DNA of 64,000 nucleotides from Cliona cf. orientalis (Eukaryota; Porifera; Demospongiae; Clionaida; Clionaidae). The DNA is taken from assembly GCA_963930775.1 (NCBI GenBank), contig OZ005690.1, forward strand, positions 10,256,411 through 10,320,410, given 5' to 3'. Under the pieces are notes generated by a model that was not told the origin of the DNA, did no database searches, and worked only from the letters and a program-made list of their open reading frames with translations. Positions 6,073 through 32,824 of this stretch are shown piece by piece. How positions within the stretch are numbered: the stretch's first letter is position 1; every line of letters begins with the position of its first letter. The position numbers were made by a program, and so were the translations under genes.

Positions 6073-6897
6073 TACATTGTACCATGCACACTAAGCACAA
6101 AAAGTTCCACATAATTAGAAACATGCATGTATATAATATTCACACGCTACAGTATAATATTATTATAGTCATCCCGAGTATTACTGTAAAAAAATTGTCC
6201 AGAAACCACCACATAGTTGAGCTGGATGCCCATACTATCGGAAACAAGGCCGTCTATGCTCCTAATAGAGCCTAGAAAACTCAGAGTATATGATCAGTGT
6301 TGAGAGGTTCAGTACCAGTGGCCACTGCAATACGCCGTTACTTCCTACTAGTACTCAAGATCACCACAGCTCACACACAAGGCTAGGGGAAGAGGTTCAG
6401 TACCTGTGCCCACTGTAACACGTTACTTTGTACTAGTACTCAAGATCACCACAGCACACACACAAGGCTAGGGGAGAAGCACAAAACAATTTTAGTTAGT
6501 TATGTTTCTAGAGCTCAATTAGATGTATTTTCCCACACACTGATCCACACATACAAAATGTAAAACTATAGCTGTATTACCCCACCTACCTCTCAGCAAA
6601 AACGGGAGAGTTACTGTTGTGACTGCTTCCTCATCCATTCAGCAAGTCTCTGGATACAATACCAGCTGCATGGTAGCCTATGCATGTACTGGACTAGCGA
6701 TTTTCTAAATAACGCACACCGGGACTCAAAACATTGCAAACACATGGCTTCGCTGTACAAACATATGGGTAAACTTTAAAGGGCCGTAACTTTAATTCTA
6801 AGACATGAATCAAAATTCCCCAGGGTCAAATCTCTAGTTTCGACCCATTCTGCGTGCCCATATAAAAATTATCTCCCCAAGTGCTCCCAAACCCCCC

Positions 6898-7781
6898 CGT
6901 TGCCAGAAATGCGCGGCCATCCCATAGTTGGAATAGCGAAAATGTTTCATAATTCGTTTAATTGGATGTGAACATTCTCTATGGGGATAAGACAAAACTA
7001 CAAGCTACCCAACTTCCGATCATCTAGACTTCTTTGATACAATAAAAGGAAGCTCCTGATGATTTACGACTATCCATACTGCATGCACAGAATTTACTAT
7101 TTTAGCAAACGTACTTGATCAACTTGTCCATAGACAGCAATACATTTTTGCTGAAGTGCCTGTAAACTTGCACGATTTTGCATCACTAGTAGCCTAAAAT
7201 TCCGACTTCCGATCATCTAGACTACTTATTTAGCTATGAAACCTCATAGATCAAGCCTAAATCTCACTTCACCGCCATTTTAAAATTTTACTTTGCAAGG
7301 GCAAAGTTCAGCAATATTGCAGAATTTTTGCTGACTCGGCAGTTAGTGACGTCATGACCTTTGAACTGGTCTACAGCAGAGGCCCTGAATCGTGGACAGG
7401 ACTGCTGCGAGTGTCAAGATCAAGTCTCTGTTGACTATTTAGATTGAAAATAGTTGAGATTAGGCTACTTTAGTGTATCTATCAGTAGCTAGATTTAGCC
7501 GTCAAGTGTAAAATATCATTGTTGAACTGCACTGATCTGCTGTGGACTACATTATTTTATCACAAACGGCAATTGAAGGTACTATCTAGCTATTTTAAAT
7601 TAAATTACCTTGTAGGAGCCTACAAAGGCCTGATTATAATGATAAATAAGTTGATTTTTGTCGATCGTGAAATTTATAATGATATTCATGACTTCCTGTA
7701 CGCTTGTAATTAGTAATTACGAGGGCTTGTATAATGCAAACATATGGATGTCCGCTGCTCCATAGGGCATTTCTGGCAACG
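6898..7781. mobile_element. 884-bp insertion with 15-bp terminal inverted repeats
   Basis: Starts CGTTGCCAGAAATGC and ends with its exact inverse. It interrupts a repeat exactly between a C run and ATGAATTTT; uninterrupted copies of that junction are at 5289, 9020 and 9403. No target duplication is visible. A 20-bp motif containing CTTCCGATCATCTAGAC occurs twice inside. Confidence 0.75.
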
Positions 7782-11815: not shown

Positions 11816-12058
11816 TATAGCTAGAGGTCTACAACCACTAGTAGGCAAAACCCATGAAATGCCTATATTATGAATTGTTACATGTGTTTTTCACAGCCTG
11901 GTACCCCGTGATATTATTACATGTAGCTAGGATCCACTGTTCAGTAGCCCTATAGCAACAACAGTAATTATGTACATTTATCCTTAACACTTGGACCAAC
12001 AGGTGTGCACACTTATAATTAACAGGATTTATATGTATACTATTATGTATTGATTTAA

Positions 12059-13051
12059 GGTACCATTTAATTGCGTGGGCGTGAGCGTCAGGAATGGCTA
12101 ATTTAATTAGCGAATCGTGAAGGGGCGTGGCCGAAGAGGCCATACGAGTGCTTTTGGTCGAAGGTGGGCGTGTCCAGAATCGGCCAGGGATGATTATGCG
12201 CGTGTAATTAGCGACCGGAAGTGGCCCCTGAAGAAAAGGCCGGTAATTGCCCACATCAAAGCAAGATCAAAGCATTCTTTCTTAACTATTAACCGCAACG
12301 ACAAAAAAAAAAAAAAAAAAAAAAAAAGCTTATTAGGCCTAATTAAGCATGTGGGCGTGTTCCTGGCACTGTGTGGAGTGTGTGCGTGTGCGTTAATGCA
12401 GGTTTTATTGCTTCCGATTGGGCGTGGCTTCACGGGCCAGTGCTTGGACATCGGCGCCTGGGACTTGGCCTCGGCGATAGGTGGGCGTGTCCCGGAAGCG
12501 GTGGCGACCTTTGAACCCGCGAGGAGGCTTTGGGGGCGTGGCAGGAGGTCAAAGGTGAGGCCATGTCTGTTAATGAGGCACTGGGGGCCTGTACGGCTGG
12601 ACGGAAGCTGACGATGGTTTGAAGCGGATGTGGTTGCGATGACGTGTTGTTACTCCGCCCACACAGGAAATGAGGTGAGCTCCTGCGTGGGCGGTGTGGC
12701 AGAACGGCCTCCAAGTGTTTGTGTGTGTTTTGGCCTTGAGGAAGCTGTGTGTTTTAATTGGGATTGATTGTGGGCTTCCGGTGGACATCCGGTGGTTAGT
12801 AGGCACTTGATTGAGAATGGTGGTCCTTGGGGAACAGGGTGGGGCTGTTTTGGGCGTGGCCTGGCCCCTCCCTTCCGGCTCGGCTTCCGGTCCATGGAGG
12901 ATATTAAATGAACACTTCCGGCTCTAGCAGCCACACCCCTGAGACCTGTGCAATTAAAAGGGCGTGGTTACACAACATGCACCTCACTAATGACTTTGAT
13001 GTGGTTTAGGTGTCATATCCCCACCTCACGCCCACGCAATTTAATGGTACC
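12059..13051. mobile_element. GC-rich inverted-repeat element with TTAA target duplication
   Basis: Ends are GGTACCATTTAATTGCGTGG on the left and its near-perfect inverse on the right (about 28 bp), flanked on both sides by TTAA (12055-12058, 13052-13055). The inside is far richer in G+C than its surroundings and codes for nothing convincing. GGGCGTG(G/T) recurs about nine times on the plus strand and CTTCCGG several times. TTAA duplication suggests piggyBac-type mobilisation, but the termini are not the usual CCY form. Confidence 0.75.
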
Positions 13052-13055
13052 TTAA

Positions 13056-14599
13056 TTACTCTGATTTTATCAATAATTCTCTGTCATATAATATTATGTT
13101 CCGATGCATGCATAGGTTACATAAGAGGTGTAGGTCTCTACGGGATTTACACATGCACCAAGGGCTGGGGGTCCAAGGCTGTGTAAATAACGTAGATAGA
13201 TACCAAACAGAGTGATATAACCGACTTGTACCATGGGCTGGGCTAAATGGCCCTGACAACGTATCTACGGTCTATCAATTACAGCGTCAGCCATAAAGGC
13301 TCGGGCGCGTACTTAGCAACAGTTCAAACCATTGTCGTCAATCGAGTCGCTGCTAGACATTGATGAACAGTGAGCTGATACCATATTTTCTGTCCAACTA
13401 CAACTTCTTCCTTGATATTCACAACCACAATACTATCATCAATGTGTACAAAAGGCCGACTATGTCATCACTATCTTAATTTCATCTCAAAGTAGCTAGT
13501 CTGAGTGCAGCTACCACTAGCATTGCTTCTACTAGTACTGCTGATTTGGCAATCATTCGTTCAATTAACACAGTAGCTATTAAAGACCTGCCCACTAATC
13601 ATCTGCATACCAACACTGACAGTATAGTACTCTGCATAGCTATATCTTTTCACTGCTGCATTCTGTAACCACCCTAGCAGGCATGATCATATAGCCTCAG
13701 AGATAGGTGATTGAATAAATATTTAGACGCCTACAAGTATTATTTAGATACCTACAAGAGGTGTACAAGTTATTAAATTTAAACACCTCTCTGGACGACA
13801 CCTATGAAGCAACCTGATCGATCAGAATGTTACAACCATGGTACAAGTTATAGTATGTGTGACATTGTGGCCTTGAATCTGTACACATGGATTTTCTGTT
13901 ACTGTAACAGTAATGGCTGTCTCACTCTACATTATTAATAGTGTTTTATGTGAGCAGGCTTGTCGACCTTTCACAGTTAAGCTTGCCCCAAAGAAGTCTC
14001 AAAGAATTCACAGTAGCTGTTTATGAGCCAATGTGCTCAAAATGTACCATGCAGAATTGCTCTAAGGAGATTCAATCTGATATGACCCCTAAGACTCACC
14101 ACATGTATTAATTCAGTATATAGTATTTGTAATAATCATAATAAATTAATCTGCCATACCATGCCTTACCTTGGGGTCTAACTGGGAGGTGGGCTGACGT
14201 TGCCGTACGTCAATTCAATATTACTTGCTATCAGTACTTGTATTAGTTTAAACCAACTATGCTGCAGTGTACTGTAGGCCATGTAGTGTATGTAAACCAG
14301 TCTCACCACATTCTCAGGCCTGCTGGACAGTGGAAATCCCCATTTATTAGGTGGGCGGCACTCTTTCAAATAAGCTTTATACCTTAATTAGCAGATAATA
14401 GAGGCAGACAATCCAGTGGCCCCTCTTTCCATTAAGCACTTCAAGTTTTATTTTTAATTTTATATAGTAACATTTTTAATCTCTGATCGTACTCTTGTCT
14501 CTATTCATATACTATTAGTATCCTCTACCACAGTTAAAGTTAATACTTCCTGTAGTTCAGGATGTGTAGGTGGAAATACGGATGAACATCAAAGGCCGT
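13056..14599. other. No gene seen
   Basis: Short frames only, no splice-consistent exons and no ankyrin-like sequence that could extend gene A upstream. Confidence 0.55.
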
Positions 14600-15700
14600 G
14601 CCGCCCACTATATACTCAGCCTCTATTTCTATTTCCAACCTCTTTCCCCCTTTCTCTATCAATGCTTGAACTCATAATAGCCTTCATGCAGGCTGCTAGG
14701 AGTCTACTATGATTACATTTTGGAAAGTTCTGGCCTGAGCTCTGTCACACCTACAAATAGAGTTTGGATAAAAGTAGAAAGTTGGTAGCTAGCGGATCTC
14801 ACATTCCACACTCCTGGACTAGTGTGGGAGAATAGCATGCAAGTCAGCTACTCTTTAGGCTCCTCCCTCTTTTCTCACACATATCATGTTGAAACCACAG
14901 GGGCTCTAGCTGGCTAATGGAAGTCTGTTGAATTCACTCAGGGCTTGTATTTCCTGATATTAGAGCCCTAGAGCATGCTGATGATCAGTGGTAGCTAATA
15001 AATGTTTGAATATTCAAATTGGAAATCTTGAAGTAATTTTTGGAAGTTTACGTTGAAACAATTCAGTGAGCAATTGAATGACAATTGTTGGCCACTGTAA
15101 TTATCCACATTGGATGTATGCACTGTATGTATGCACTGATACTTGTAGACAGATTGTCATCAAACCAGGATAAGGCTTATAGAGTACTTGTGGTATAATG
15201 GTTTGTACTGAATTAGAAGTGAACCACTTTGCTTTGTCTATGCTTTGCCTATGCATTCACATTATATACAATGCTCCCAGTGACTTAATTAGCTATCATA
15301 ATATTGAAACCACAGGGGTCATAGCTGGGCTAATAGAGATTTGTAGAATTCACTCATGGCTTATGTTTCCCAATACTAGCACCTGTGAGTAGCACATTAA
15401 TGATCTAACAAAAGTTTGAACATACAAATTTGAAATCTTTAAGTAACTAATAATTTGAAATGTAATTTGAAATGGTTCAATGAAAAATTGAATAACAGTT
15501 GCTGGTCACCATAATTATCCACATTGTATAACATTGTGTGCACTGATACATGTAGACAAATCTTGTACTTTGTCCAACTATATCCATCAAACCAGGACAA
15601 GGCTTATAGTACTTCTGGTATAGTGGTTTGTACTGAAGTGAACCACTTTGCTTTGTTTATATATTTGCACTATAATATGCAATGTTCCCAGTGACTTAAT
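14600..15700. repeat. Dispersed repeat, second copy and a partial third copy
   Basis: 14600-15300 matches 2040-2680. From about 15295 a partial copy repeats the last ~400 bp (GAAACCACAGGGGTCATAGC to CCCAGTGACTTAATTA). The end motif CCCAGTGACTTAATTAGCTA also occurs at 4463. Confidence 0.65.
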
Positions 15701-16364
15701 TAACTAGGATCCACTGTAGTAACAGCATACTTATCATAATATTATTATTATTATGTTGGTGAGGTTGCAGTAGCTGTGGCAGGCCAGGCCTGGTGCTGGG
15801 CTAGCTGTCATCAGTTTATGGGGCATTGTCTACATCCACTGCACTGCCTTCCCATACACAAACTCTCACACTCACAACAATAAACATTAATTTGTTAATT
15901 ATCTGATTACTAAAAATATTTTGGTGAGCATGAAATGGGCTTTTATTATCCTAGATGCACATGGATTAACTTTTTTTGGCCAAATTAAAAACAAAACCTC
16001 CCCAAAGTTTCCCACTATACAGTATCTAGAAGCTCACATGATAATTACTGTTATGTGTGTGTCTGTAATTCTGTCTCTGGAACAGCACTAGCTATTTGTA
16101 GTCAGTCTAAAGGAGAACTGAATAGTTATTCTTTTTGCTGACAGTGCACACACACTGACCAGCCAACTGATGGAGACTATTTGTGTGCATGCTAATACTT
16201 ACAGTGCATGTCATTACTATCTTCACACACTCAGCCATGAATGCAGTGGAAGTGGGTTTTTTCCTTTCTCTGACCTAGCTCCACTGTTGACAGGAAATGA
16301 ATAATTATCATTATTACCTAACTGTTTTTATATTCATTGACATAATATCCTAGCTGCTGTTGCC

Positions 16365-18703
16365 ATGTCCTTTATTCCACAGACAAAGACACACTCTTCT
16401 CCCCTCACAATATCATGTGGAGGAAACCATCTCCAAGTAGCTCAGCTACTGATTAACAATGGTGCCAACATCAATTATAAAGATGGTGTATGTGATAATT
16501 GTCACTATTGCTTTCATACTTTTAATGAGTGTTTCCCCACAGTATGATAGAACAGCTCTTCACTGGGCATCCGAGAATGGACACCGTGCAGTGGTGAAGC
16601 TACTGGTGCAGTCTCATGCCAATGTGAATGTTAAAGACGATGTGAGTACAGAATCACCTAACTAGAATGAGTACTATTTACTCCTTACACTGTACATGTG
16701 GTAATGTTTGCTGTCAATTGAAAATTATCATTGCCGCACGAGACAATGAAAAATAATTAAAAATAATGTTATGGAGTTTTGGAGGAAGCTTAGCCAAACA
16801 CGTGTCAGCCCAGGCCGTGAACGGGCATTGAAGTGATGATTTTTATAATCGATTGGATATTCAGCAATATCTCGCTCTTTTCATGACTATTTCCATGTTA
16901 GGGATGGACTTCCCAATCATAGCTATTATAGCATACCTATCGGAAGCATTATCAGGCTCTCTTTCACACGTATGTCAAAGATTCTCCAACACTTGCCTCC
17001 CATACCTCTTTGTACATGTGGTAGCATCAAATACAATAATGCCTTTCAAGTAGCTCCTCTAGTGGCACTTTTCTTTTTCTTGAACTTGTTGATAGTTGTA
17101 GTTCCACAAAGTAGTATGAATTTCAGTATAAAAATTCATAAATGGAGTTCGAGCATGACACACAGAATTCTAATGAAGGTTTCATCGGTCTCCATTTGCA
17201 GTTGTGGTCCATTCTGTATGCTTGTAAGAATAATTTGGCAAGCTATGGACGGCTATGTACCTACATGTAGACAGCTGATATCGATCTCGTTAAATACTTG
17301 CCTTAAACAGTTAAAACTTGGACAGCCTTTCCACCTTGGTCTACCTCAAATAATCACCAATAAGTTTGCATAATATCCTCAAATGCCTCAGTGCTGAAGG
17401 GTTGTTGGTAGCCACCTTGGCTGCATGTTTCTTGAGCACATCTTGAAATTTAAGTTAATTGTTTGTATATGGAGCTATGATCACATGCGCTCAATGTCAT
17501 AATCACATAATTGGCACTAATTAGGAATACTAGTTAAATACAAGCTATTTGCAAGCCCCTGCACAATCATCAGCTGAGGCTGTACAATCCTAAAACCACA
17601 AAATTGGAATTAGATGCTGATGTGTTTCAGATCGAGGATTTAGAAAAGTCACATTTTTGTAACAGCACATGCAATACTCATTCTGTGTGTGTATCTATTC
17701 ATTACCACGCCACCTGCCATGTTGTACCTCCTTCATAATGTCAAAACGGTAGTTCCTTGAAGAATACTTATTGTGTAAGAACTTTGCTGATTCAGACATG
17801 CTTTAATCGAGAAATATGGCGTTGATCGGCACTCATCTCTCTCTCTCTCTCAGTAGGAAATACACAATTGAATTATTAATACAACTGCATGCTACCGACA
17901 TCGCATGTGAACTGCTAGCTAGAAATTACGAATAATTTTTTTATTGTCTTGGCTTCCAGGCTTGATGGCTAAGTTTAGCTGGCTCATGATATTAGCATGT
18001 GATTTGGCAATTCATGGCCCACTTACCCCAAGTTGGGCCAAGTAGGGGAATTTGTATGGGGCTTGATATCAGGATTTGGCCTGACTTGGGGTAGTTGGGG
18101 CATGACATTGATAGGTGCATTAACAGATTAGCTATTAAATTTTTCTCACAGCTTGGATACACTCCTCTTCATGACGCTGTTAAGGGTGGTCACACTGAAG
18201 TGGTGAAGCAGCTTCTACTGTCCCAAGCCAACCTGGACATTGAAAACAATGTGAGCTCTGCCATCTCCTCTGTCAGCACAGTCATGCTGTACTTCATTAA
18301 TAGAGTGTAACTTGATGGGTCACTTGATCGAGCAGTCGGTCAGTGGGTGGGTGGGTGTGGCCAGTAGCTACTATATGGGAAGCATATTCCATTTGTAAAA
18401 TTAATGCTTAGCCTAATCGAAAATAATATTATTGTGAGGTGCTTTAAAAAAAATTAATACTCACTCGTTATTGTCATGACATAATAATATTGTAGCTGAG
18501 GGCGCGTGTGTGTTTGGCCATTGGTAGAGACTTAATCATAGAATTTGTGGTCGATTAAGTTAATTTGTTTATTATGTAAACTGTCTGTATAGATAAGTGC
18601 TGTTTTAATTAATTGGTGTATCTGTTCCAGGCTGGCCAGACTGCCCTCCAGATAGCAGAAGACAAAAACCACTCAGAAATAGTTAGTCTGCTGAAGACTG
18701 CAG
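16365..18703 (+). CDS. Gene A exons 1-4: ankyrin repeats
   Basis: Four exons each carry one ankyrin repeat, with conserved TALH/TPLH starts, a GH or NH turn and a VV.LL helix. Introns between them are phase 0; the last exon ends in phase 1 (GCA G|gtgagt). They match exons 7-10 of gene B (39850-41661) one for one, including much of the intron sequence. The only in-frame ATG near the 5' end is at 16365, inside what is intron and splice acceptor in gene B, so the first exon could be an initiating exon or an internal exon starting at 16383. No promoter was recognised upstream. Confidence 0.85.
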
Positions 18704-21700
18704 GTGAGTGAGCTCAGATAAAGAGCTAGCTATTATTTTGTGTTCACTTATCCCTTCCCAAGGAAGAAAATAAGTGCAAGATTCAGCCCAATAATAATTA
18801 TTATTATTATTATAACAAAATTATGGGTTAACAATAGAATAATATGCCTGATAAAGTTAAGAGGGTTTTGGTGATATACATTATACTAGTAGAGGAGACC
18901 TCTTGTGCGTAGATAGTATACTAATATAGTTTTCCTAAACCTTCATCATAATGTGCATGAGCCTCACCAAGTACCTACAGAGGCAAAATATTCAAACTTC
19001 ATGTGCATGTGAGATACACACCTTGTGATCTATTCACATTAAATTATTATGTGTGATAACCTTTTGCCAAGAATTATTATAAATAGATTTTCCAAATATT
19101 CAATAACTTTCCAAACAACACATTTGCAATAATACAGCTGATCAATGTGCCCAGTGCAAGAGAAAGTTCGCCTTTTATAGAAGACAGGTGTGTATAATAA
19201 TTTTAATATAACCTGTAGTGCATACATGGCCGCATTGATTAGCTATAGTGTCTTTTCCTGTAGTATAAGTGCCAAAGATGTTTAATCCGAGTGTGTGATA
19301 GCTGCTCCAAGCACAGGGTACCAATTTCCGATCAAACATCCAAGCCTGAAAGAGTCTGTGATCGCTGTTTTGATGACCTTACAGCTCAACGCAAAAAAGA
19401 AAGTAAGGCTTCACTTGAAGTGATAATAGTTAGTCCTAATTCAAGGAATCTTTAAACTATTCAGATCAACCACTGTCAGCAGATGAGCTGAGAATACTCA
19501 ACATCGTCCTAGTGGAGTACGTGGACAAACTGAAGGATGCTGGTTTATGTTTTGAAGCAGCCATTGCTAGCCAACCAGCCACTAAACAGCCAGTGGTCAC
19601 TAAGAAAAGGGTGGTGGAGTGCTTGCAACAGATTGGTCAGCAAGAGTTAGCTGACATTTTGATCAAAAATCAAGGTAAAAGTTTCATAAAGAATAAGCCA
19701 AGTATAGACAAGATTTGTTGCTTTAACCACTCTTGCATGTATCCATAAAAATTTAATAATAGTCTCCTGAATACACAGTCTACATAAAGATTCTGTAGAA
19801 GATAGTGTCATTCTTCTTCACTAAAACTACACAGTACCTATGCAGGGTTTCATCTAGCGACAAAAATTTGGGGTGGAATTGTGATAAATGAGTGGGTGTA
19901 TTTAGCACACATTAGTTCCTTGAGACATATTTACTCTAGATTGTTTCGGGTAATTTTTGATCAAAAACAAAATTAATGCGAGTGATTTGATTTGGTGACT
20001 TATTGTGATATTATGATGCTTAATTTAGTAGGGGGGTGGAAGCTAGGGAGTTTGGAGGGAATTAAGCTTTCCTCCCCACTGGATGAAACCCTGCTATAGT
20101 TCATGATTCATAAGCCTACTCACTGGTGTTATGGACACATAGCATCAATTTCATTTGTCATGATGACCATGGAGGACTTTGTGTGCACCAATCAGAGTTT
20201 ATATTTAACCCATGCAGTGATTACTAGCTGCAGGAAATTATGCAAAAGCACCATTGCCCGGTATACAAAATTAATTGAATCACCTTAAGTTACTGATCAA
20301 TCGGTTTGGAATCTGAGCTCTGCTCAAGTGCACCTGTGTTGGCATGCACAAGCCAACCCAAGCTAATGGCCCAGGGTCACCAAGTACTCTTCCCTCCTTT
20401 AGTTAGGGGGGGGGGGGAGGGGGGGAGGGGGAGGGGGGTGACGGCGAGACTAATATTATTGATCGCATGCTTGACTTTCATTTAACTGACTCGCAGAAGT
20501 GCTACAGTGGAACACCTCAATGCCAAACACCCTTTGGACCCAGTATAATTATAGAATATAATATTATATTATATTATTGTAATGATTTTGCGGGCTTCAA
20601 AATAGCCAGGTACAAAGAGTTTAGCAAGGTCCTTTCCAACAGCGAGCAAGCGCTTCTAGAGCCTAGCACATAGCTTCACCAATGACACTAGTATTAATTG
20701 TGTGTGTATATACAAAGATACCCCATCTTGACAGTGCTAGGGGTATTTATACTAAAAGGGACAAGAATCAGGGCTGCTCTAACCAGCCAACAGGACGTGT
20801 AATAGGGTACAAATAATAAGAACAATAACAATTAGTGTCTCAATAAGAACCAGTCAATAGCTGAATTAGCAATTCCGCTACAATATGTATAGGTGGCCGG
20901 ATTAGCGAGGTATCCTAGGGTTATTTAAGTATGGCTTACTGCTATAAGTAATGTAACGCACAATCTCACAAATGAAGCTACTCAGGATCAAGATTGCCAA
21001 TACAGAGATTAGCAGTTCTAGCGCAATTTTAGCACTATAGCTATCCTTGAGCTCTTCTTGCTGTTTGTTTTACAAGTGAATCTATGAATCTTTTGCCAAG
21101 GTGTTGGCTATACAGAATAGTGGGGTATCTGCTGTTGAGTGGGGTTGAATGTATTGATCGAAGTCTGGAGATGCAATCCAGATATTCAGCATTGTCTGTT
21201 ATATTGCGAGTGTCCGTCAAGCGGGATTCCATTGTATATGATAGTGATCCGGATAAGTGCTCTACCATAATTATAATAATGTTTCACCAGGGCACTTACA
21301 ATGTACCAAACCACGTGCAAATTAGCGGGTATGGCAATGTTGACCTACCATAGTATTATGTTGGTGGCAAGCTAAGTCTGCTTAGACACAAGGCAGTCAC
21401 TCTTTAAATTTGTTATGTATAGATGCTACTAATGCTAAATTGTGACTGTGTGTGCTCAGCGGTTGGTGGCAAATAAGATCAATTCACGATCGAGCTATGA
21501 TGTTATGTCGACTACATAATATGGCTACATTAATTTTGGTACTGAAATTTGAGGTGAGATTTATGGATACATGCTCAATGTTGAAACTCAAGCTAACACC
21601 CTGTCTTTGCCTCTACCCCAAATTATCTCGGCAGCTGTGATGTTTCCATGACAGAGATCAATAAATTTTGAATATAGAGCTTGTTTTTGAAGTACCATAG

Positions 21701-24700
21701 AAAGTGGTTGTTAATTAAGTGCACGCGCTTATAAATCGCAGAAATAAGGGAAATATGCACCAGGAAAAAACGTCCGCTTAATTGAAAAGGCTAAAACGCA
21801 GTAGGTGGGGCGTGCGTAATGATCTACATGCCTAAAGTAGAAGTGCCTAATTCCACCTAACAATTACTTCGACTCCAGTCTCTGCGTCATGATTGATCAT
21901 TAACTGTATAAAGGAGGCTTGTGTTTAACAGACAGAAGTTCAGCCTGCACAAGACCATGCATTTAATGAAACATGAACTGTGCTTATCGTTACAGCCAGT
22001 GTCTATGGTAGTTGGATTGATTTGTGTGTAATTTAATTTCTCTCTAGCCAGCTCGATCTGGTGCTGCATATCATGGAGCATCGATCAATATTTTGAGCTA
22101 TCTCACATTCATAAGCGTATCAAATCAGACTCTCATTCAAAGAAACCTGAGCTAGCACATTATTAAGTTTCTTTGTTGATTCTGGCGATCGTCTTGCGTG
22201 AGGTACGTAAGGACACGTGCACAAATGATGTCATGTGATGCAATAACTGTAAATTTCGCGGCACGAGAAGCACGCAATAATTAATTTTATTATTGCATTA
22301 TCTTAATGCTATCAAAATCACTGCTATGCCTATGTCACGTGATTAGTTATGTGCATACAAATAACGTAAAGAATTGCATTAGCAACTAATGATAATATTA
22401 TGACGATGATAGCGTATACACAATCAGATACCATTCACGCATTGCAAAAGGCTAGTTAGCTATAGCTATAATATGTATCTGCACTAACAGGCATCAAAGA
22501 GCTTCAGGATTACGTGTATAAAAACATCTACGAAAGTGCATTAAGAAGCGAAAAAGCTGAAGTCAGCCTTCAAGCATTCAAGATGATATTGAGTGGAGTA
22601 CCACGATCGGGAAAAACCACCTTCTGGAAGCGATTAGCGATCAAGGACTTTGTGCCCAGTAAGACATCAACAAGCACTGGAGCAGCAGAGTCACACTTTC
22701 TCTCAGCCCACATGAGCACGGAAATGCTGCTTGATTTGCACTTGTACAGCGAAACGGATACTGAAGATCTCACAACAGAAGCACTGACCATTTATAAGTG
22801 CATTTTAGAAGCAGCTCCCACACAGACTGATTCAAGTCAAAGTGAGAGTGTCAAAGAATCAACGAGTGTGCCTTCAAAATCAGTCAGCAAGGAAAATGAT
22901 CAATCACAAGCAACTAACACTCAGATATCCGAAGAATACGTTTCGAGTCAACACGAGCCACAAAGCATTGATCCTGATACTAATCAGCAATTTGAAGCCA
23001 GCACTGCAAGTCAGAATTCAACAAAATCAACGAGTGAAAATGAACAAAGAGTACCAGTAAAGTTTGCGTATCGTGAAATCATTGATGAAAAAATATTGGC
23101 AGCCCAGAAGCAAGAAGTTGAACAAATTTCCAAAGAGATTGATGACTATTTCAATGAATTAACTAGCCTCCTACGAAAAGGCGAAAAAGTGCCCACCAAC
23201 ATCACACTTATTAAGAAAATTTGTCACTTGATTGACACTGGAGGTCAAAGGGCATTTTTAGAACTGCTTCCTACGGTGACAGTGGGCAAGGCACTCTACC
23301 TTCTCTTCTTCTCATACGAGCACTTCGACAGCAGAATTCACGAGACAGTTCAACAGCAAGGTGCCTCTACGGAAGTACACACTGGTACATTCTACGAACA
23401 GATGGACATAGTAATGCAGTCGCTAATCTGTGTATCGAGCACTTCCTCCGTATCGAAAGATAATTTAGCCCTACTTGTTGGTACACATGTTGATAAAGTT
23501 GAAGCTCAACATGTGGAAGATGTTAATAAAATCGTTAGTAAGAAAGTGGAACCATTCCTGAAAAGTGGCCTCGTCTTTGCAGATGAAGAAAAAGATAAGA
23601 TGGTGCTGGAAGTAAGCATTGAGAAAACTAAGAGGTGTAGTAATCAGCCCGAGGATTATCGAAAAGTGATTTTGGACATTGCAGAAAATAAGCTATCTTG
23701 TCCAGAATCCGAAAAGCTGCCTGCGTCATGGTACATGTTCTCAATTGTGTTGCGCAGGATGAAAATAGCCGGTCATTCAGTGCTTCGATACAGCCATTGT
23801 CAACAGATCGCTAGCAAATTGTATATCAAAGAAACACAGCTCCAGAGCTTGCTCTCTCGTCTCCATAAGATCCTCGGCATTGTGATGTATTTCCCAGAAA
23901 TACGTGAACTTAAGGACTTAGTCATCTGTGATCCCTCGATCGTGTATAGAGGTATATCTGAGCTTATTTTCAATTCATTCACCAAGAGCAGTACAATGCG
24001 ATCCTTGCAGTTGAGAAACTGGGGAATATTCACATATCGGGAGTTAAAGGAACACTGCAGATCAAAATCGATGAAACAAGGATATCAGCTTCTAATTGAC
24101 CAGTTAATAATTATTCTTCAGCATCTTGGAATCATTACTCCAGTTCAGCTCAGTGAGCCAGACGATTCTTCAGATGATCCTAAGGACGAGAAACATTCAT
24201 CGCAAAGCATTGATGCAGAATTCATAATTCTCGCTGTTCTTAATAATGCTCAACCAGAGGAGCTCCAACTGCAGCTAAGAGATGGAGAGGCCTGCTCAAT
24301 TATCCCTCTCAGAATGTATTTCAAGTGTGGGTTTTCCCCAATGGGCGGATTCTGCTACCTCTTCGCAAGATTGATATCCGATCGAAAATGGAAACTTCCA
24401 CTTAAAAAGGAACAGATGATTATCGATAATAAGATTTATTGGAGAAATAAAGCCACTTTTATCGTTGAAGCAGATCAGAAGAAATATTTTGTGACTCTAG
24501 TGTCAACCAAAGTATACTATGAAATTCACATTGTGCATACTCATTCAAAAGAGCCATTCCAGCTTAAAACTGATGGCCGCAACATTTGCAGAAAAGTTTG
24601 GAATGATATCGAAGCAGTCATTTCGAACTCTTTAAATGCACCTTTGAAAGAGTATACAGTTGCTTGTCAGTGCACCTTGCACGGAACAGAATTGGAACAT

Positions 24701-27700
24701 GCAATGGAATTCAATAGCAAACCACATGATGAAGAATCAGAAGTTAAGGCCAATTGTCTGTTGGACAAAAACAGACCACACCTGCTTACTATAGACAGTT
24801 CTAAACAATCTGTAATAGTATGGTTCAAAGTAAGTATATAGAAAAATTGTAATGTGTACTTTATTTATCCTCGGAAAATTGCTAAACTTTACCTCATTGT
24901 CTTTATAGGAACCATGTGATCATCGAGTCCAGAATTTGGGCAGTGTTGTTAAACTATCTACGGACCACTTTTTCGTAACCACTGCCAGCAGTGGGCAGCT
25001 CAAGTATCAATGGTCAAAAATTATTAATGATGAAGAGGAGAAAATTGAAGATGAGGAATGTTTCAAAAACAGTGACTCAAAATCAATGGTTATCAATGCT
25101 TTTGAAAGTAATGTTGCTGGAACCTACCGATGTGTCATTTCAACATCAAATCAACTTGTACTTTCAATGTCACTCGAAGTGGAACTACATCTACCAGGTA
25201 AGTACAAACATTATTCTTCAGAACAATAATAATAATAGCTACTGTTTGCAGATTTCCCTGAAGATTTTAGCACTGCAATGAGCAATAAGGAGTTTTTGCT
25301 ATTTCTCAATGCTAATGGTATTCGTTATAAAGTCTGCAAGAAGTTGAAAGGTACAAAGGGATGAATTACACTATAGGTGATATCATTGCTACAGGAGTGT
25401 AGTTAATCCTAAGTTTTATTGGTAGCAGGTGAGAGAAATCTAGACTTCCATCTTTCCACTAGCCGCAGTACACTTCTCTCACCTGCTTACAATGCTAAGC
25501 TTACAATAATTATTCCCAATTATTATCCTAACTTTATTTCGATTGCAGAACAAAAAATCACCGCTGAGAAATTTAATCTGAGCTCTTTTGCATTTTGGGC
25601 ACCACATCTAAACCTGACACCCATGGAGAGGAGTGAACTACAAGATTTATTAAGTAAGTAGTACACTTTTTCCACAAAATATTGACGTTGTGCTCCTCAG
25701 TTGCATCTAGGCAGGTGTTCATTAGGAAGTCTTGTGGGTGGAGGGGGTGTATATCACAAAAATATAATATTATTAAGAAGGGTAATAATTATTATGAAGC
25801 TTTATTAACAGCTAGTATTCCAGAGGGGAATCTTAGACTATTTTATATTCCTCTAAATTAAATACCCAGCACTATAATAATAATATTAACTATTCAATAC
25901 CATGTAATTTTTATCTACCACAATAAGTTTAAATTTGATAATTGTCTTATGCATACATTTGGAATCAGCCCAAGTCAGTCCAGCATTAGAAGTACAAGAA
26001 GTACAGGTAATAATATAATATTATTACGTATTATTCAAACATATCAAGGTTGATGGCATAATAATTATTATTAATATACATGGATGCACACACTCAAAGG
26101 CTGAAATGAAGTGCCCTGTGTGTCGAACCTTGCAAGTCGATCCCTGCACACTTCAGTGCGGACACACTATTTGTCAACTGTGCTTGGCTCGTATGTACAA
26201 AAATATTGACAAATTCTGTCCTATGTGCAAAGAGCCATGGAGTATGTTTCCTGCAATCAGCTATGACTACAGGTATAATGATCAGAGTTCATCGTGATTA
26301 CTATTATAGTGTAACTGCATAATCTGCTTTGAATTTTAGAGCCAACATTGAGAGTTCTTATGGTCATCAAGTTAGTCAGCTGAGAATGCAATACACTCAA
26401 GAGGACAAAGAAGTTATCGAAGAATTTTTGAAAGCAAAGAGGAGTTTTAGTCTGAAATCAGAAACTCATGTGGGAAGAGAAGGCCTATGTGGTAACAGCA
26501 AACACTCACTCATTCTTCTTCACCCCCACCCCTAGAAACTCCTCTCTCACTCTCTCTGTCTTTTCACACTCTTTCACTTGCTTGTACTTAACATTATTCA
26601 TGCAGAAGATCCACTGTTGACATTCTCAAAGCACCTGGACCATGAGCAGTTGTCTCGATGGTTATCTCACCATTCAAGATTAATGGCTGTTGATTATCGA
26701 CAAGATATTGGCAAACTGAAAGGTATAATTATTTCATTGCATCGTAATTATGTATTCATTCATTTTTACGACTGCATGTAGACGCCAAAGTAAGTGGTGA
26801 TGTATTTCTGAGCCTGGACAAAGACTCACTGGAGCACTATGGATTGTCTACTGAATTTCAAACACCACTAATAAAAATTATTGAGGAAGTGGTATGTAGC
26901 TAACCCTGAATGCCTATTTTGAGATTTGATTCAAACATTATGATGTACTGTAGAAAATGCATCCACAATCTCCTGAAAAGGAGACAGAATTACAGCTATA
27001 CCAGCAAAAGTACTTAGAAAGTGTGCTTATCGCAGCTTCCGATTCCTCTGGCACAGACGTTCAGTCTACAGAACAAAGTACTAAATTATTATTAGTGTGT
27101 GATACTGTAATTATTATTATGCTCACTCTCATGTACTTCAGGTGAATCCCAGATTGAAAAAATTGATGCTGTACAATCAATGTCAGCTGATTCGGAAGCA
27201 ACTGACCTTGGTACGTACTATATATGTAGCTACTAAAATTTAAGTTGTATAGAGCTCTTCGATGTGATCATGTCATCATATGCTGTCGTATACATGCCTA
27301 AATACAATTTAATTTTGTGTACACCTTTATGCAGCTGTGTGGACATTACCTGGTGTAGAAGAGTGTGGTGAAACGAGTGTGGTTGTACACTCTTCTCAAG
27401 GTCAGCTAGTTGAATGGAATGGCTTGAAGCTTCATATCCATGCAGGCAGCTTACCAGAAGGCTTACAGCAATGTACCATTTTCATCAAAGCTTCTCTTGC
27501 TGGGGACTATGAGATCCCTGAGAACACTAGTCTAGTCAGTGGCGTCTTTTGGCTGCGCTGCGAGCCACAGTGTATCTTCGTTAAGCCTATTATAGTTGAG
27601 ATCCAGCATTGCAGTACTAAACGGGATATCTCAAAGCTTAAAATAGTACGAGCATTTTGTAATCAGAAGTCCCTCCCCTACAAGTTCAAGCCACTGGGAG

Positions 27701-30700
27701 GTAACTTCAATGCTGACACATTTTATGGAGCCATAGATATGAAAGGTTTCTCTGGAGTTGGTGTTGTTGACGAGAACTCAGAGAGGCTGTACTATAACCA
27801 GCTAATATATTGTAGTAATCAAAGTCAGCAGAGACATAACGTCGAAATACACATAGTGTTCACCTGGAATACTAACACACACATCAATGTAAGCTATTCA
27901 CTATTGTAATAATAGCTATAATAATAATAGCTAATTATTATTATAACATCCCAAATGTAGTATGTGAGCAAGAAGTACCCTGAGCAGCAGGGGTTCATCG
28001 CTGACTACTACCAGGTTGTTGAATTAGATGGAAACGCAATCAGAGTCGATCTTCCTAAAGCGAAGTGGACTGAACTGATGGATGGTCAGTGGGAAATTCA
28101 TCCCAAAAAAGCAGTGGTCAGTCAACAGTACAATTTAATAGTATGCAAGATACCATGATTTTAGCAATATGTATTCCAACTTTGTATCTTAGGTAACTAA
28201 AACAGAACTTGATGATTTTAAACCAGACCGAGGGATACCCAACTGCTTGCTCCTAGCACGCCCTCTATGTGAAGATGCCCCTTATCTCTTACACTTAATA
28301 ACTCTGGATGGAATCAAACCACCATACAATGAACTCACTCTATCCTACGAACCAATAGCAAGAGGTTAGTATTATTACTGCTGTTTCAGTCAGGCCTTCA
28401 TGCGGCTATAAGTATTGAGCATACTAAACTTTTAACTCAGAGGGAAACTCTCTTCCACAATAATAATATATTATAATTCCTTGTATTAAGTATTGGAACA
28501 TGCATAGATTCTGTGATCAAATTTAGTGATCCAGGGGCCTTTAATAAAATGAATGAATTATCTAAGATTGTGTAGTACAACTAGTTAGGTACTAATCACC
28601 TGTCAATATTGATGCAAACAGATTCTACAAGTGATGCTACACAACAGCCACAAGAACTACCAACAGGTCAACAAAGTCAGGGTGAGCTATTTATCTCTGC
28701 ATGCAAGGACATACACAACTCATTGAACCCATACGCTGAAGACCTGTCCACACTACATGTACTTACAATGCGAATGGCCTAATATTTTATTTAGCTATAC
28801 CAGTGTGATCCAGAAGCTTAAGAATTAGCATGCAGATGATAATAACCATTTTCATTAATAATTCCACCTACAGTTCAGACTCCAGTGGATGTACGTGTAC
28901 GTTCGCAAACATTCTCCGAGGACATGAGTAGTGAGCAACTAGCACTGTGGTTAAGAAACCACCCCAGCTTGAGTGAGGGAGAATATGAAGAAGATATTAG
29001 CAAATTAAGAGGTACATTACCCAACACAGTGCTAATTATTACGGTAGTAATAAGATTATTGCTTTGTTTAGATGCCAGGATTAATGGCCATATATTTCTG
29101 AGCCTTGATGAAAGCCGGCTAGAACGTTTCAGAGTATCAGCTGGATTCGAATTTGCCATCATGAATATCATAAAAGACGTGGTAAGTTCATGGGAAAGTA
29201 TCTAGTGTAATATTACTTCAACTTAGTCCTGTTATATAGCTACAGAAAAGCAGCCATCAACCTCCCAGTAGTGAGAGACTACCACTACAGCAACAGTCTC
29301 CAAGAAGCAGTGTGGCTACCCCCAGAACTAAACAGCATCAGCTAAGCTCTTCCACTACTGGACAACAAATAAAACTTGGTAGGCAGTACGACATGCATAC
29401 ATCCATTTATGCATAATTATGCACACACCATACACGAGTACACCTTTTTGGTAGTTAAAAATTTAAAACGTGTGGCTTGTTTAATTTTACCAATTTTATC
29501 AAGATTGTGAGCACAGGCTCCTTATACTAAATTGACTACAATCAATTCACCAGTAGATAACGTTTCAGCGAACTTCTTAATTGGGTGTTCGTCATGATAT
29601 TGATAGCTGCGAGCTACATCGTGTTATACCAATCTGCCATTATTTCTCTCAATGAAAATAATGCCATAGGCAATTGCAGCTATCAATATCATAATTTACC
29701 AGTAATAAGGAATTTGAGAGTTCAAAGGTTCGAAATCAAGTTTGCCAGATCAGGATAAGATCACCTTGAAATCCAAGCATTAAGATAATACTGTGGGTGG
29801 TCTAAATTCCATTGGAGCGATAATGCATAAATGCTGTAGTTGAAGAGATACTTAATAAAATTCATGGCCAATGTGATCACTGTTTCTGGATGTTGACGCC
29901 AATCAACACTCTCATTCAAGGAATGCATGCATGATACGCCGTCGCATGCAATAGTATCACATATCTCTCAATAGATAAATTGGGGATCGTGGGGCAACAA
30001 CAGCGAGAGTTATTTTTAAAAGCAAATAATACAGAAGATTAAAAGATCATTCAATTTTAGGATTCTAGTAAGAAATCGGTGATGTTTTCATGTTTGACAC
30101 TGTAATCGTGTAGCTATATATACTACAAAATGTATACCGCTGTCACAGTGGTTAATGTCACACTATAATAATTATAATTACAACTTGGCTTGTAGTGGGG
30201 TGCTTGCGCAATAGAGGGTGACTGGCCTTAATAATTGGATACCCAATTTCAATTTCAGCGCCTGTACCACATTCACAAGCTCTGGCAAGTGATCAGCCAA
30301 AGCTGGATGTACCTCCAGAATTCTCAAAGAATATGAGTCATGAGCAACTAGCAGTGTGGCTAAATAACCATCCACAGTTTGTGGGAGAAGAATATCAACA
30401 AGATATTAGCAAACTGAGGGGTATTAATTGATACAATTACCATGATAGTGTATAGCTAACTAAATGTTCATTTTCTATTCAGATGCCAAAATTAATGGCT
30501 TTGTATTCCTAAACCTGAATGAAAGTATGCTAAGACTCTTCGGGGTATCATTTGGATTTCAGTTTATATTAATAAATATTATTGGACACTTGGTAGGTTC
30601 ACTAGCGATTACTAATATTACAGATTTTAGTAGCTATAACCCTGGTGTATATTTTTACAGAATAGTCAATCTACAGCAACTAGTGTTGATACCACCATGG

Positions 30701-32824
30701 TACAGCAGCAGCCAAGCCCTCATACTACTGTGCAACAAAATCAAACAAGACTTGGTAGGCTGACTTAGTAATATAATATAATATACTGTAGCTAATTATC
30801 ACAAACATGTAACTACTGATATACACAGTGTACACATATTATTATCGGCAAACAAAGACCATGACCACTCCCAATAGGTCAATTTTGAGCTCAATAGTCG
30901 TATAGAATCATTTTTTAAAGCAAATACAAAAGGTTATAAGATTATTACTAGCCATTGTTTTGAATTCTCATTTGAAACCGTAATCATGTAGCTATTATAT
31001 AAAATACATACTGCCATGGTTAAATTTGAGTGATGTCACACTATATATATGAGCACAAGTTGGCTTGTAGTAGGGCACACACACAACAAAGGGTGACTGG
31101 CCTGAGTAACTGGATACCCAATTTTTAATTTCAGAGCCTGTACCACATCCACAAGCCCTATCAAGTGATCAGCCAAAGCTGGATCTGCCTCCACAGCCAT
31201 TGGAATTCTCAAAGGATATGAGTTATGAGCAATTAGCAGCGTGGTTAACCAACCATCCTCAGTTTGTGGGAGCAGATTATCAACAAGATATCAGCAAACT
31301 GAGAGGTATATATAATTAGCACTTAGCTACACAGATTATCAGAATGGCTAACTAGATGACATTGTTCATTTACTTTTATTAGCTGATGGAATCAATGGCT
31401 TTGTATTCCTAAATCTGAATGACAGTATGCTAAGACAGCTAGGAGTGTCAGTTGGATTTCAGTTTATACTAATGGATATTATTAGACACTTGGTATGTTC
31501 GCTAATGATTATATAATAATACTATGACAGATTTTAGTAACCTGGTGTATATTTTTACAGAATAGTGAGTCTACAGCAACTAGTGTTGCTACCACCATGA
31601 TACAGCAGCAGCCAAGCCCTCATGCTACTGTGCAACAAAATCAAACAAGACTTGGTAGGCTGACTTAATAATACGATGTAGTGTAATTATCACAAACATG
31701 TAACTACTAATACATAGTGTACATGAAAGTTCTTAGCTTAACAAGGATGGGCACACACACTCTCATCACCCCATCTACATCCTAAAGCTAGCTGGAAGAG
31801 AAAAAATCCGGGCAGCCACCGGGAATCGAACCCAGGGCCACTGGCTTGAGCCACCAGCGCTCTACCACTGAGCTACGACCACCCTTAGGCACCCGAACTC
31901 CCCCCTTCCAGCTTTAAGGGCGAAAGTCAACCCTATACCCAAACTACGTTCACGGAGTCTGCCGGGATAATTAAATCACCAAAGCACAGAGCCCCAACAA
32001 TAGTAATTACATGTACACATTATTATCGACAAACAAAGGCCATGATCACTCCCAATAGGTCAATTTTGAGCTCAATAGAGTCGTATAGAATCATTAATTT
32101 TTTTAAAGCAAATACAAAAGGTTATAAGATTATTTCTAGCCAGAAATCAGTGATGTTTTGAATTCACATTTGAAACTGTAATCGTGTACAATACAAAATG
32201 CATACTATTACGTATCGTCGTGGTTAATTTTGAGTGATGTCACACTATATATGAGTGCAAGTTGGCTTATAGTCGGGCGCACGCACAACAGAGGGTGACT
32301 GGCCACCATGGCCGCCCTACTTTCTACTTTCGAGTCCACATTTACTTCAATGTACTGGCATTTCCTATGCCACTGTATTATGCAAGTGCTGTCGATGAAT
32401 CAGATGTGCATACATGCATGCATACTCATTTACACACCAATACACACATGTACTGACCTGAATAATTTATTGTATTTTGTACATAGATGAATTACCGACA
32501 TTAGAAGAGTTGCTGATACTCAAGTACACTGACGAAGGAAAGCAACACAAACTTCGAATTATAAAAGAAGCTAGCCATAAATGGAAGGACATTGCTAATT
32601 TAATTAGCGGTGATGTTAATGTAACGAATATATTAAAAGAAAAATGTGGTGGTGATCCCAACGAGTGCCTCAAACAAACATTCATTGACTACTTCATTAA
32701 CAAGAAACCACAAAGGTATACCCAGAACTGGAATGGACTGATTGAATTATTGGATGATGTTGATCTTGAAACACTCGCTAAAAAAGTAAAACATGCATCT
32801 TTATGTGTGATAGGCACTAGATAG
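16365..32824 (+). CDS. Gene A: ANK-FYVE-Roc/COR-Ig-RING-SAM-ZU5-SAM(x3)-Death protein, 32 exons
   Basis: Exons: 16365(or 16383)-16487, 16543-16641, 18152-18250, 18631-18703, 19138-19187, 19264-19402, 19465-19674, 22491-24829, 24909-25197, 25252-25350, 25549-25653, 25969-26006, 26100-26272, 26340-26491, 26606-26722, 26782-26891, 26954-27077, 27142-27210, 27335-27888, 27961-28140, 28193-28364, 28622-28681, 28874-29011, 29072-29181, 29246-29378, 30259-30420, 30483-30592, 30661-30754, 31135-31305, 31383-31492, 31561-31654, 32487-32824. Every junction has GT/AG and matching phase; the sum is 6834 nt, a multiple of three, with no internal stop. Domains by residue: ANK 1-131, FYVE-like 132-194, helical linker 195-264, Roc/COR 265-1044, Ig-like 1045-1140, SAM-like 1141-1208, RING ~1224-1270, SAM1 1330-1405, ZU5 ~1470-1654, SAM2 1792-1874, SAM3 1919-2009, SAM4 2041-2134, Death 2166-2277. 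No signal peptide or membrane segment is seen, so it is probably cytoplasmic. The 2.8-kb intron before 22491 is the weakest link: two genes are possible, though the phase fits. More 5' exons may be missing. Confidence 0.8.
19138..19402 (+). CDS. Gene A exons 5-6: FYVE-like zinc finger
   Basis: Two exons joined in phase 0 encode eight cysteines in four CxxC pairs (CAQC, CQRC, CDSC, CDRC) and the RVC motif expected near the end of FYVE domains. The WxxD and R(R/K)HHCR signatures are lost or degenerate (RRQYKC at the second site), so zinc binding looks intact but phosphatidylinositol 3-phosphate binding is uncertain. FYVE domains normally target proteins to endosomes. Gene B has no equivalent. 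Confidence 0.75.
19465..19674 (+). CDS. Gene A exon 7: helical segment before the GTPase
   Basis: A 70-residue exon in phase 1-1, rich in Leu, Val, Glu and Lys, predicted by eye to be helical, ending with a pattern (VVECLQQIG..ELADIL) that faintly resembles the last helices of a death-fold domain. I do not recognise the family with confidence. Its phase matches both the FYVE exon and the large GTPase exon. Confidence 0.65.
19842..20094. mobile_element. GCAGGGTTTCATC-type element in gene A intron
   Basis: Inverted ends GCAGGGTTTCATC / GATGAAACCCTGC around 253 bp; possible TAT target duplication. Confidence 0.7.
21190..21353 (+). pseudogene. Possible beta-helix-type gene fragment in gene A intron 7
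   Basis: An open stretch ending MFHQGTYNVPNHVQISGYGN reads like the GTY..P..V.I.G..N signature of secreted right-handed beta-helix proteins common in sponges. No start, stop or splice partners were found, so it may be a fragment or chance. Confidence 0.25.
22491..24829 (+). CDS. Gene A exon 8: Roc/COR-like GTPase module
   Basis: A single 2339-nt exon after a clean TAACAG acceptor. It carries a P-loop (GVPRSGKTT, about residue 300), a Ser/Gln/Glu-rich insert (about residues 370-450), a G3 motif DTGGQ (about 512) and a G4-like GTHVD (about 595) in place of NKxD. The next ~200 residues resemble a COR domain (ILGIVMYFPEI, then a predicted strand and helix containing CDPSIVYRGI). The C-terminal part (PLRMYFKCGFSPMGGF and onward) resembles the segment after COR in animal Roco-like proteins. 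The Walker A lysine and DxxGQ are intact, so nucleotide binding is plausible. No kinase domain follows, unlike LRRK proteins. Confidence 0.8.
24909..25197 (+). CDS. Gene A exon 9: Ig-like domain
   Basis: A 96-residue exon in phase 0-1 with an Ig-fold pattern: a tryptophan of strand C (YQWSK), a VINAFESNVAGTYRC segment covering strands E-F with the GTYxC signature, and a beta-rich end. The strand-B cysteine is replaced (VVKLS), so the usual disulfide cannot form. That fits an intracellular domain. Confidence 0.65.
25252..25653 (+). CDS. Gene A exons 10-11: SAM-like fold
   Basis: Two phase 1-1 exons (25252-25350, 25549-25653) encode about 68 residues: EFLLFLNANGI then a basic helix, and a second half ending NLTPMERSELQDLL. 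The pattern recalls SAM-like domains (FL...GI, then a short helix and ...ER.L..LL). It is more diverged than the four SAM domains downstream. Confidence 0.55.
25969..26491 (+). CDS. Gene A exons 12-14: RING finger and helical extension
   Basis: The middle exon (26100-26272) has a C3HC4 RING: CPVC, then CGH, CQLC and CPMC in the expected spacing. The preceding 38-nt exon is a linker. The following exon (26340-26491) is a charged, probably helical extension. RING-HC fingers bind E2 enzymes, so this would make gene A a potential ubiquitin ligase. All eight metal ligands are present. The acceptor at 26098-26099 is AAAG, with a weaker pyrimidine tract than its neighbours. Confidence 0.8.
26606..26891 (+). 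CDS. Gene A exons 15-16: SAM domain 1
   Basis: A SAM domain split over two exons (26606-26722 and 26782-26891) at the same point and phase as every other SAM in genes A and B. The first half has EQLSRWL, the second GDVFLSLDKDSLEHYGL, matching the SAM pattern WL...G..LL.L....L...G. It is the most diverged of the four and lies before the ZU5 domain. Confidence 0.75.
26954..28364 (+). CDS. Gene A exons 17-21: linker, ZU5 domain and beta-rich extension
   Basis: Two short linker exons (26954-27077, 27142-27210) precede a 554-nt exon with a ZU5 domain: a GQL strand, GLKLHIHAGSLPEG (compare the usual V.L.IP.GA...G), then SLVSGVFWL and IFVKPIIVEIQH. Exons 27961-28140 and 28193-28364 continue a beta-rich region where ankyrin- and UNC5-type proteins carry UPA; I could not match it to UPA. 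ZU5 next to Death recalls the UNC5/PIDD/ankyrin ZU5-UPA-Death arrangement, but here SAM domains separate them. Confidence 0.75.
28622..29378 (+). CDS. Gene A exons 22-25: linker, SAM domain 2, Ser/Gln-rich linker
   Basis: A 60-nt Gln-rich linker exon, SAM halves at 28874-29011 and 29072-29181 (MSSEQLALWL; GHIFLSLDESRLERF), then a linker exon (29246-29378) rich in Ser, Gln and Pro. This module is the closest relative of the gene B SAM module: the same 138- and 110-nt exons and an almost identical linker. Confidence 0.8.
29594..29692. repeat. ~99-bp foldback in gene A intron 25
   Basis: ATGATATTGATAGCTGC at the left and GCAGCTATCAATATCAT at the right. Confidence 0.55.
30259..30754 (+). CDS. 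Gene A exons 26-28: SAM domain 3 and linker
   Basis: SAM halves at 30259-30420 and 30483-30592 (MSHEQLAVWL; GFVFLNLNESMLRLFGV) and a linker at 30661-30754. It is nearly the same as the following module (SAM 4), introns included, which points to a recent tandem duplication of about 876 bp. Confidence 0.8.
31135..31654 (+). CDS. Gene A exons 29-31: SAM domain 4 and linker
   Basis: SAM halves at 31135-31305 and 31383-31492 (MSYEQLAAWL; GFVFLNLNDSMLRQLGV) and a linker at 31561-31654 that differs from the SAM 3 linker at only a few residues. The intron after it (31655-32486) still contains the duplicated intron tail seen before SAM 3 and SAM 4, and has gained the tRNA-like insertion. Confidence 0.8.
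31724..32017 (-). mobile_element. tRNA-like element inserted in the last intron of gene A
   Basis: The equivalent intron after SAM 3 (30755-31134) runs from ACACAGTGTACA straight into CATATTATTATC, while here about 294 bp are inserted, flanked by GTACA repeats (31719-31723 and 32013-32017). The insert holds the tRNA-like sequence, flanked by an imperfect inverted repeat (TAAAGCTAGCTGGAAG and CTTCCAGCTTTA). Confidence 0.65.
31811..31882 (-). tRNA. tRNA-like sequence, probably the head of a SINE-type insertion
   Basis: On the minus strand there is a good A box (TAGCTCAGTGGTAGAGC) and B box (GGTTCGATTCC), a D stem GCTC/GAGC, a T stem and a 5-bp anticodon stem. The acceptor stem relies on several G-T pairs and the base before the anticodon is G rather than T, so a working tRNA is unlikely; the anticodon would be CTC. 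It lies inside an inserted block in a gene A intron. Confidence 0.5.
32487..32824 (+). CDS. Gene A exon 32: Death domain and stop
   Basis: The terminal exon encodes 112 residues with a death-fold pattern: KLRIIKEASHKWKDIANLI, then CLKQTFIDYF and WNGLIELLDDVDLETLAKKV, equivalent to the W..IG..L, CL..L..W and W..L..AL....LA.KI helices of Death domains. It is close to gene B 44150-44478. One extra A near the end relative to gene B makes the frame bypass the gene B stop and use a TAG a few codons later. Confidence 0.8.

Follow-up and report, generated by a model that had tools for sequence, protein, structure and literature searches.

The locus analyzed here raises two questions: whether a single sponge gene encodes a chain that combines ankyrin (ANK) repeats, a FYVE-type finger, a Roc/COR GTPase, and Ig, RING, SAM, ZU5, and Death domains, and, if so, what kind of protein this chain might be. 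The locus lies in a stretch of 64,000 nucleotides from Cliona cf. orientalis (hereafter, the window), and positions without a contig prefix are those of the window. A first-pass annotation of the letters of this stretch had proposed such a chain; we rebuilt its gene model and searched the genome for paralogs.

Structure and limits of the gene

Rebuilding the gene from splice signals and reading frames recovered the proposed join of 32 exons in one frame, with matched phases and a single stop. The re-derived model occupies 16383-32824 of the + strand and comprises 2263 codons; all 31 introns are GT-AG, phases match throughout, and the sole stop codon is at 32822-32824. An exact-base splice test against the paralog L061-63, which took in the 17 of 32 exons with a usable match, identified AG at 13 of 17 acceptors and GT at 15 of 17 donors. 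Ungapped splice matching in a second paralog (L037/38) was passed by 16 of 25 acceptors and 16 of 24 donors, with the misses including exons that have no counterpart in that paralog. The gene is real, and the recurrence of its exons in one order across many paralogs exceeds what chance would give.

The start codon that had been proposed, ATG 16365, has to be abandoned. It lies within the polypyrimidine tract ahead of the acceptor 16382/16383 of an internal ankyrin exon. Exon 1 opens at this acceptor (ttccacag/ACAAAG, 16383), and the acceptor tract recurs before a paralogous exon at 39850, where ATA replaces the ATG. No ankyrin exons were found at 1-16382 of the window; three further ones are located to its left (C2:10250711-10252268; L064 positions 4301, 5580, and 5760). 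Because these are collinear with three ankyrin exons of the neighboring paralog, we infer that they are part of the same gene, and an intron of approximately 20.5 kb would therefore precede exon 1. The gene is predicted to extend 5' past the window edge, such that exon 1 of the window is an internal exon. A 583-codon frame on the - strand (10061-11812), labeled reverse-transcriptase-like from reading, lies inside the predicted intron.

The first-pass annotation placed a doubt about a single gene at the intron between exons 7 and 8. Under the alternative, two adjacent genes, one comprising ANK, FYVE, and exon 7 and the other comprising Roc through Death, have been misjoined, and the length of this intron (2.8 kb in the window and about 10 kb in one paralog) is consistent with such an arrangement. 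The paralogs argue against it: in the 4 of 20 fetched loci whose flanks contain both exons, the intron measures 300, 656, 865, and 931 nt, the junction CAAG/gtatgt...ag/GCATCAAA is common to all four, and exon 7 accompanies Roc at 25 of 27 loci. Based on this evidence we reject the misjoining as extremely improbable, and the claim of one gene across 19675-22490 stands. A tblastn match in L037 with an apparent extension of exon 7 to exon 8 is an intron read-through, with the usual exon 8 acceptor present there.

Domain composition of the predicted chain

The order predicted from the joined exons is ANK array, FYVE-type finger, exon 7, Roc/COR, Ig, RING, SAM, ZU5(-UPA), three SAM, and Death (Table 1). 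That these belong to one chain in this order, as had been claimed, is supported by the same exon order at many paralogs. Pfam analysis of the joined chain agreed with the proposed domains in part: Ank, FYVE, and RING were called and ZU5 was called as a single exon, whereas Roc and COR-A were below cut-off, Ig was far below it, and SAM and Death were uncalled.

Table 1. Features of the gene within the window and the evidence for each.
Feature	Position	Strand	Evidence or remark
Four ankyrin-repeat exons	16383-16487, 16543-16641, 18152-18250, 18631-18703	+	Pfam Ank, E 3.4e-25
FYVE-type zinc finger (exons 5-6)	19138-19402	+	Pfam FYVE 44.3 bits, cut-off 27.8
Exon 7, ~70 residues, near Roc/COR in most paralogs	19465-19674	+	Upstream of 25/27 Roc/COR loci
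Exon 7-8 intron, doubted in the first-pass annotation	19675-22490	+	2.8 kb; 300-931 nt in four paralogs
Exon 8, Roc-like GTPase with long insert, then COR	22491-24829	+	GVPRSGKT, DTGGQ, THVD; Pfam below cut-off
Ig-like domain (exon 9)	24909-25197	+	Below cut-off for each of seven Ig-type Pfam families (best E 0.0015)
Exons 10-11, ~68 residues	25252-25653	+	No Pfam match; present in paralogs
Mini-exon 12	25969-26006	+	In L009, L010, L012, L025
RING finger C3HC4 (exon 13) and exon 14	26100-26491	+	Pfam zf-C3HC4 26.6 bits, cut-off 21
SAM-like domain 1 (exons 15-16)	26606-26891	+	Alignment; no Pfam match alone
Linker exons 17-18	26954-27210	+	Frame only; counterparts in L037/38
ZU5 domain (exon 19), Phe-Ser dyad (GFS) at 27748-27753	27335-27888	+	Pfam ZU5 21.7 vs 21, single exon
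UPA-position region (exons 20-21)	27961-28364	+	By place only
SAM-like domains 2, 3, 4 (exons 23-24, 26-27, 29-30) and linker exons between	28874-31492	+	Alignment
Death-like domain and stop codon (exon 32)	32487-32824	+	Place and 23% identity to L061 Death exon

The canonical phosphoinositide motif of FYVE fingers, R(R/K)HHCR, is absent from exons 5-6, which have RQYKCQRC where it is expected; the profile match is still over cut-off. Phosphoinositide binding is therefore not to be assumed. Exon 7 has no Pfam match. The Pfam scores of exon 8 were 31.7 bits for COR-A (cut-off 35.3; E 1.6e-7) and 21.3 for Roc (cut-off 27; E 3.4e-4), and a paralog exon at C1:12199636 that is 50% identical scored 36.2 for COR-A, just over cut-off. 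Its nucleotide-binding motifs, which we take to be G1, G3, and G4, precede COR and are identical in the paralog alignment. A PDB profile search with Roc/COR returned only 3dpu (E 0.23), presumably the RocCOR of C. tepidum. Pfam detected no NACHT in the joined chain and no kinase in the 2263 residues read, the 5' end of the gene lying outside the window.

By reading, the Ig-like domain has no Cys at the expected first place. The C3HC4 zinc ligands of the RING are intact in the window copy, and an intact RING pattern was identified in 18 of the 30 flanks searched, the window copy included. Mini-exon 12 was present in the four close paralogs read, one of which (L012) has lost the acceptor AG of the RING exon; no such exon was identified in L061 or L037/38, in both of which exon 11 is spliced to a different RING acceptor.

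What had been annotated as one SAM domain comprises four SAM-like exon pairs, which Pfam does not call in the whole chain. Their identity derives from an alignment of five SAM-like pairs, for which the best PDB profile match was SAMD12 (E 0.015). Domain 4 reached 15.8 bits for Pfam SAM_2, below the cut-off of 20.5, and domain 2 had no Pfam match. The Pfam score of ZU5, of which the joined chain has one stretch, depended on context: 21.7 as a single exon, 20.4 with exons 20-21, and 17.8 in the whole chain (cut-off 21). ZU5 was matched in all 16 paralogs scanned out of 30 fetched. Exons 20-21 had no Pfam or PDB match, and PDB profile searches with ZU5 and with ZU5-UPA returned nothing.

Pfam yields no Death match for exon 32 itself. 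The exon at the same place in L061 was called as Death (25.1 vs cut-off 22.6), and exon 32 is termed Death-like on account of this place and its 23% identity to the L061 exon. When a Death profile was searched against PDB, the top match was Mcl-1 (E 0.54), ahead of PIDD (E 1.4), a ranking that we read as noise; the L061 exon alone returned FADD (E 0.45). Family members that are otherwise closely similar end in at least two types of Death exon that are 23% identical, which suggests that last exons may have been exchanged among members. Some other full copies are followed within a few kb by a second Death exon (for example, C2:8295389 and 8300567, of which 8300567 has internal stops, and C2:10220989 and 10224196); these second exons are possibly short regulators, decoys, or remnants.

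An expanded family within the genome

The genome (216.8 Mb in 149 contigs) was searched with the parts of the gene, and matches were joined by place and strand. At least 27 Roc/COR loci were identified, the window's own included, with identities of 47-100%; these are the 27 of 66 matches at or above 47%, with those at 39% and below left out. Also retained were 18 FYVE and 29 exon 7 places of 58 matches, 26 of 59 matches for Ig, 32 of 72 for RING, 36 of 168 for ZU5, and 31 and 13 of 150 each for Death; second pieces and matches that were weaker or more remote were set aside, and for Death we kept the strongest together with those near family loci. Partners were sought within 16 kb upstream of Roc/COR and, downstream, within 6 kb for Ig, 9 kb for RING, 12 kb for ZU5, and 16 kb for Death, with either of the two Death types being counted. 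Same-strand, in-order partners of the 27 loci comprised exon 7 at 25, FYVE at 14, Ig at 26, RING at 26, ZU5 at 22, and Death at 24, and all six were present at 13. The weakest locus (C5:4331359; 47%) had only ZU5 among the partners.

Two paralogs illustrate the conserved order. The 21 kb read at L061-L063 comprised ten ankyrin exons and one half ankyrin-like exon, FYVE, exon 7, Roc/COR, Ig, exons 10-11, and RING, followed by ZU5, UPA-position exons, two SAM pairs, and a Death exon, without a SAM pair before ZU5. Its ankyrin array has one repeat per exon. In L037/38, counterparts of exons 8-11 and 13-25 are followed in order by an additional SAM pair and the last exons; its exon 7 lies at a distance of 10.6 kb upstream, and the search identified no FYVE in this paralog.

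Between the window and L061, dN/dS was 0.21 for Roc/COR, 0.20 for ZU5, 0.21 for exon 20, 0.11 for RING (with saturated dS), 0.27 for exon 7, 0.37 for FYVE, and 0.41 for Ig. Comparison with L037/38 yielded 0.16 for Roc/COR and 0.14 for ZU5. The core exons are under purifying selection. Since the Death types differ and the length of the ankyrin array varies, the core has been kept while both ends change.

Related sequences occur in other arrangements. On the + strand of the window, at least seven ankyrin exons precede SAM-like and Death exons in a tandem paralog at 37905-44478, in which none of FYVE, Roc/COR, Ig, RING, and ZU5 was identified. At C7:3.94-4.10 Mb, five pairs of Death and COR-A matches lie in same-strand frames of equal length (860-887 residues) with COR-A first, and these are probably simpler, single-exon Roc-COR-Death genes. 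Genome-wide, at least 150 COR-A matches (150 of 290 candidates scored; the last three listed do not exceed the cut-off, and these are matches and not gene models) and at least 104 NACHT matches (103 of 490 candidates scored) were identified, numbers that amount to a very large GTPase/NTPase receptor-like repertoire.

Relation to known systems and possible function

The domain arrangement had been regarded as one not known from a described family. Within the titles and abstracts searched, no description of the ANK-FYVE-Roc/COR-Ig-RING-ZU5-Death order was found (coverage is incomplete, and forty animal combinations may include the order); however, the arrangement belongs to a family of at least 27 loci on two known skeletons. 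The best reading of the sequences is that two skeletons, ANK-Roc-COR-Death of the DAPK1 type and ZU5-Death of the ankyrin/PIDD type, are joined around a RING in this family. DAPK1 carries ANK repeats. ROCO proteins are grouped as LRR-Roc-COR proteins, those with a kinase after these domains, and DAPK1, with Death and without LRR (PMC6337361). The predicted order of the sponge chain matches the ANK-Roc-COR-Death of the DAPK1 group. The sponge family differs in its additional FYVE, Ig, RING, SAM, and ZU5 domains, in its many copies, and in having no kinase in the part read.

Ankyrins have the order ANK-ZU5-Death with two ZU5 domains, and UNC5 has ZU5 followed by Death. These orders are in part described in PMC3210808. 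The sponge chain likewise has ANK with ZU5 and a Death-like domain in order; unlike ankyrins and UNC5, it has Roc/COR and RING in its middle and one ZU5. An ankyrin-like scaffold that ties membrane or cytoskeletal partners, with Death as a passive interaction module, would account for this ankyrin order and for a paralog on C10 in which ZU5-SAM and a Death exon come after ANK exons and the 18.5 kb read revealed neither Roc nor RING. Such a scaffold nevertheless appears unlikely given the single ZU5 and the RING that accompanies Roc/COR at 26 of 27 loci. Ankyrins, moreover, are not known in tens of copies.

A further comparison concerns PIDD, CARD8, and NLRP1, which carry ZU5-UPA ahead of a death-fold domain and also have Phe-Ser at the place where ZU5 self-cleaves (PMC3210808). 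For CARD8, neither Phe nor Ser is dispensable, the preceding residue can vary, and two histidines matter (PMC3210808). Phe-Ser is found at the ZU5 end in all of the best 30 of 168 genome ZU5 matches, a count outside which the distant members fall, as GFS in 26 loci, HFS in three, and SFS in one. The window copy has GFS in place of the HFS or SFS of PIDD, CARD8, and NLRP1. A search for an activating His found Gly before Phe-Ser and no His at exon residues 93-138 of the window copy, and in the alignment there is no His where CARD8 has His-270. From the invariant His of the ZU5 exon to Phe are 47 residues, compared with 44 in CARD8 and 53 in UNC5b (the His-252/His-624 pair). Phe-Ser being kept and the His-270 equivalent absent, the nucleophile is retained and the activator is missing. 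Self-cleavage of the window copy is thus uncertain from its residues, and would be more likely in the three HFS siblings. The sponge chain differs further from PIDD, CARD8, and NLRP1 in that UPA is not recognized, SAM domains lie between ZU5 and Death, and ANK and a GTPase take the place of LRR or NACHT.

If the ZU5 did cut itself (27750/27751), the protein could be an NLRP1-like functional-degradation receptor. The N-terminal sensor-GTPase-RING half would stay bound to the SAM-Death half after the cut; upon sensing, the protein's own RING would mark the N-terminal half for destruction, freeing SAM-Death to polymerize. This is rather unlikely; were it true, GFS siblings would be uncut or slow and HFS siblings cut, yielding a graded repertoire.

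We favor, with moderate confidence, the interpretation that the locus is a single long gene belonging to a ROCO family expanded in this lineage, and that its product serves immune or cell-death signaling as a cytoplasmic receptor or scaffold; a receptor or cell-death role seems likely. In this model, the ankyrin array, whose phase-0 exons mostly encode a single 33-residue repeat each and are easily reshuffled, would bind a target, and Roc/COR would act as a GTP-controlled dimer switch. Switching would expose the RING for ubiquitin transfer and release the ZU5-held tail, and the SAM and Death domains would then polymerize and recruit Death-fold adaptors.

Expansion and clustering suit immune receptors but also other recognition systems. 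The family's expansion, its clustering, and its variation at both ends (ANK number and Death type) would fit an allorecognition (self/non-self) receptor rather than an anti-microbial sensor, and self-non-self recognition is named for sponges (PMC8195603); we consider this specific role improbable. In brown algae, a single species can have as many as 47 ROCO genes, which encode one repeat in each exon and are proposed as immune receptors (PMC11378527). The expanded ROCO family and the exon pattern are shared with the sponge; the brown-algal proteins have LRR and not ANK, and are without Death, RING, or ZU5. In sea anemones, Roc/COR is fused to immune domains (PMC5094078), and in the sponge Amphimedon, TRADD-N/Death-like proteins are expanded (PMC8195603). 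NACHT-Zu5 and NACHT-Ank genes reported from early animals (PMC12909245) also join an NTPase to ZU5 or ANK (PMC12909245), whereas the sponge GTPase is Roc/COR-like and its chain has no NACHT match.

These observations suggest an animal lineage in which Roc-COR GTPases, and not NACHT proteins alone, form a large receptor-like repertoire, with a GTP switch, RING, and ZU5-Death output fused in one chain. This would make it testable whether relatives of LRRK2 and DAPK1 were defense receptors early in animals.

Two further features were observed elsewhere in the window. Related peptides are repeated in several frames at 4400-9800 (for example, at 4658, 5097, 6780, and 9030), constituting a repeat family, and on the + strand the open frames at 54817-55383 and 57268-57777 are related, lie in tandem, and have Cys residues in common.
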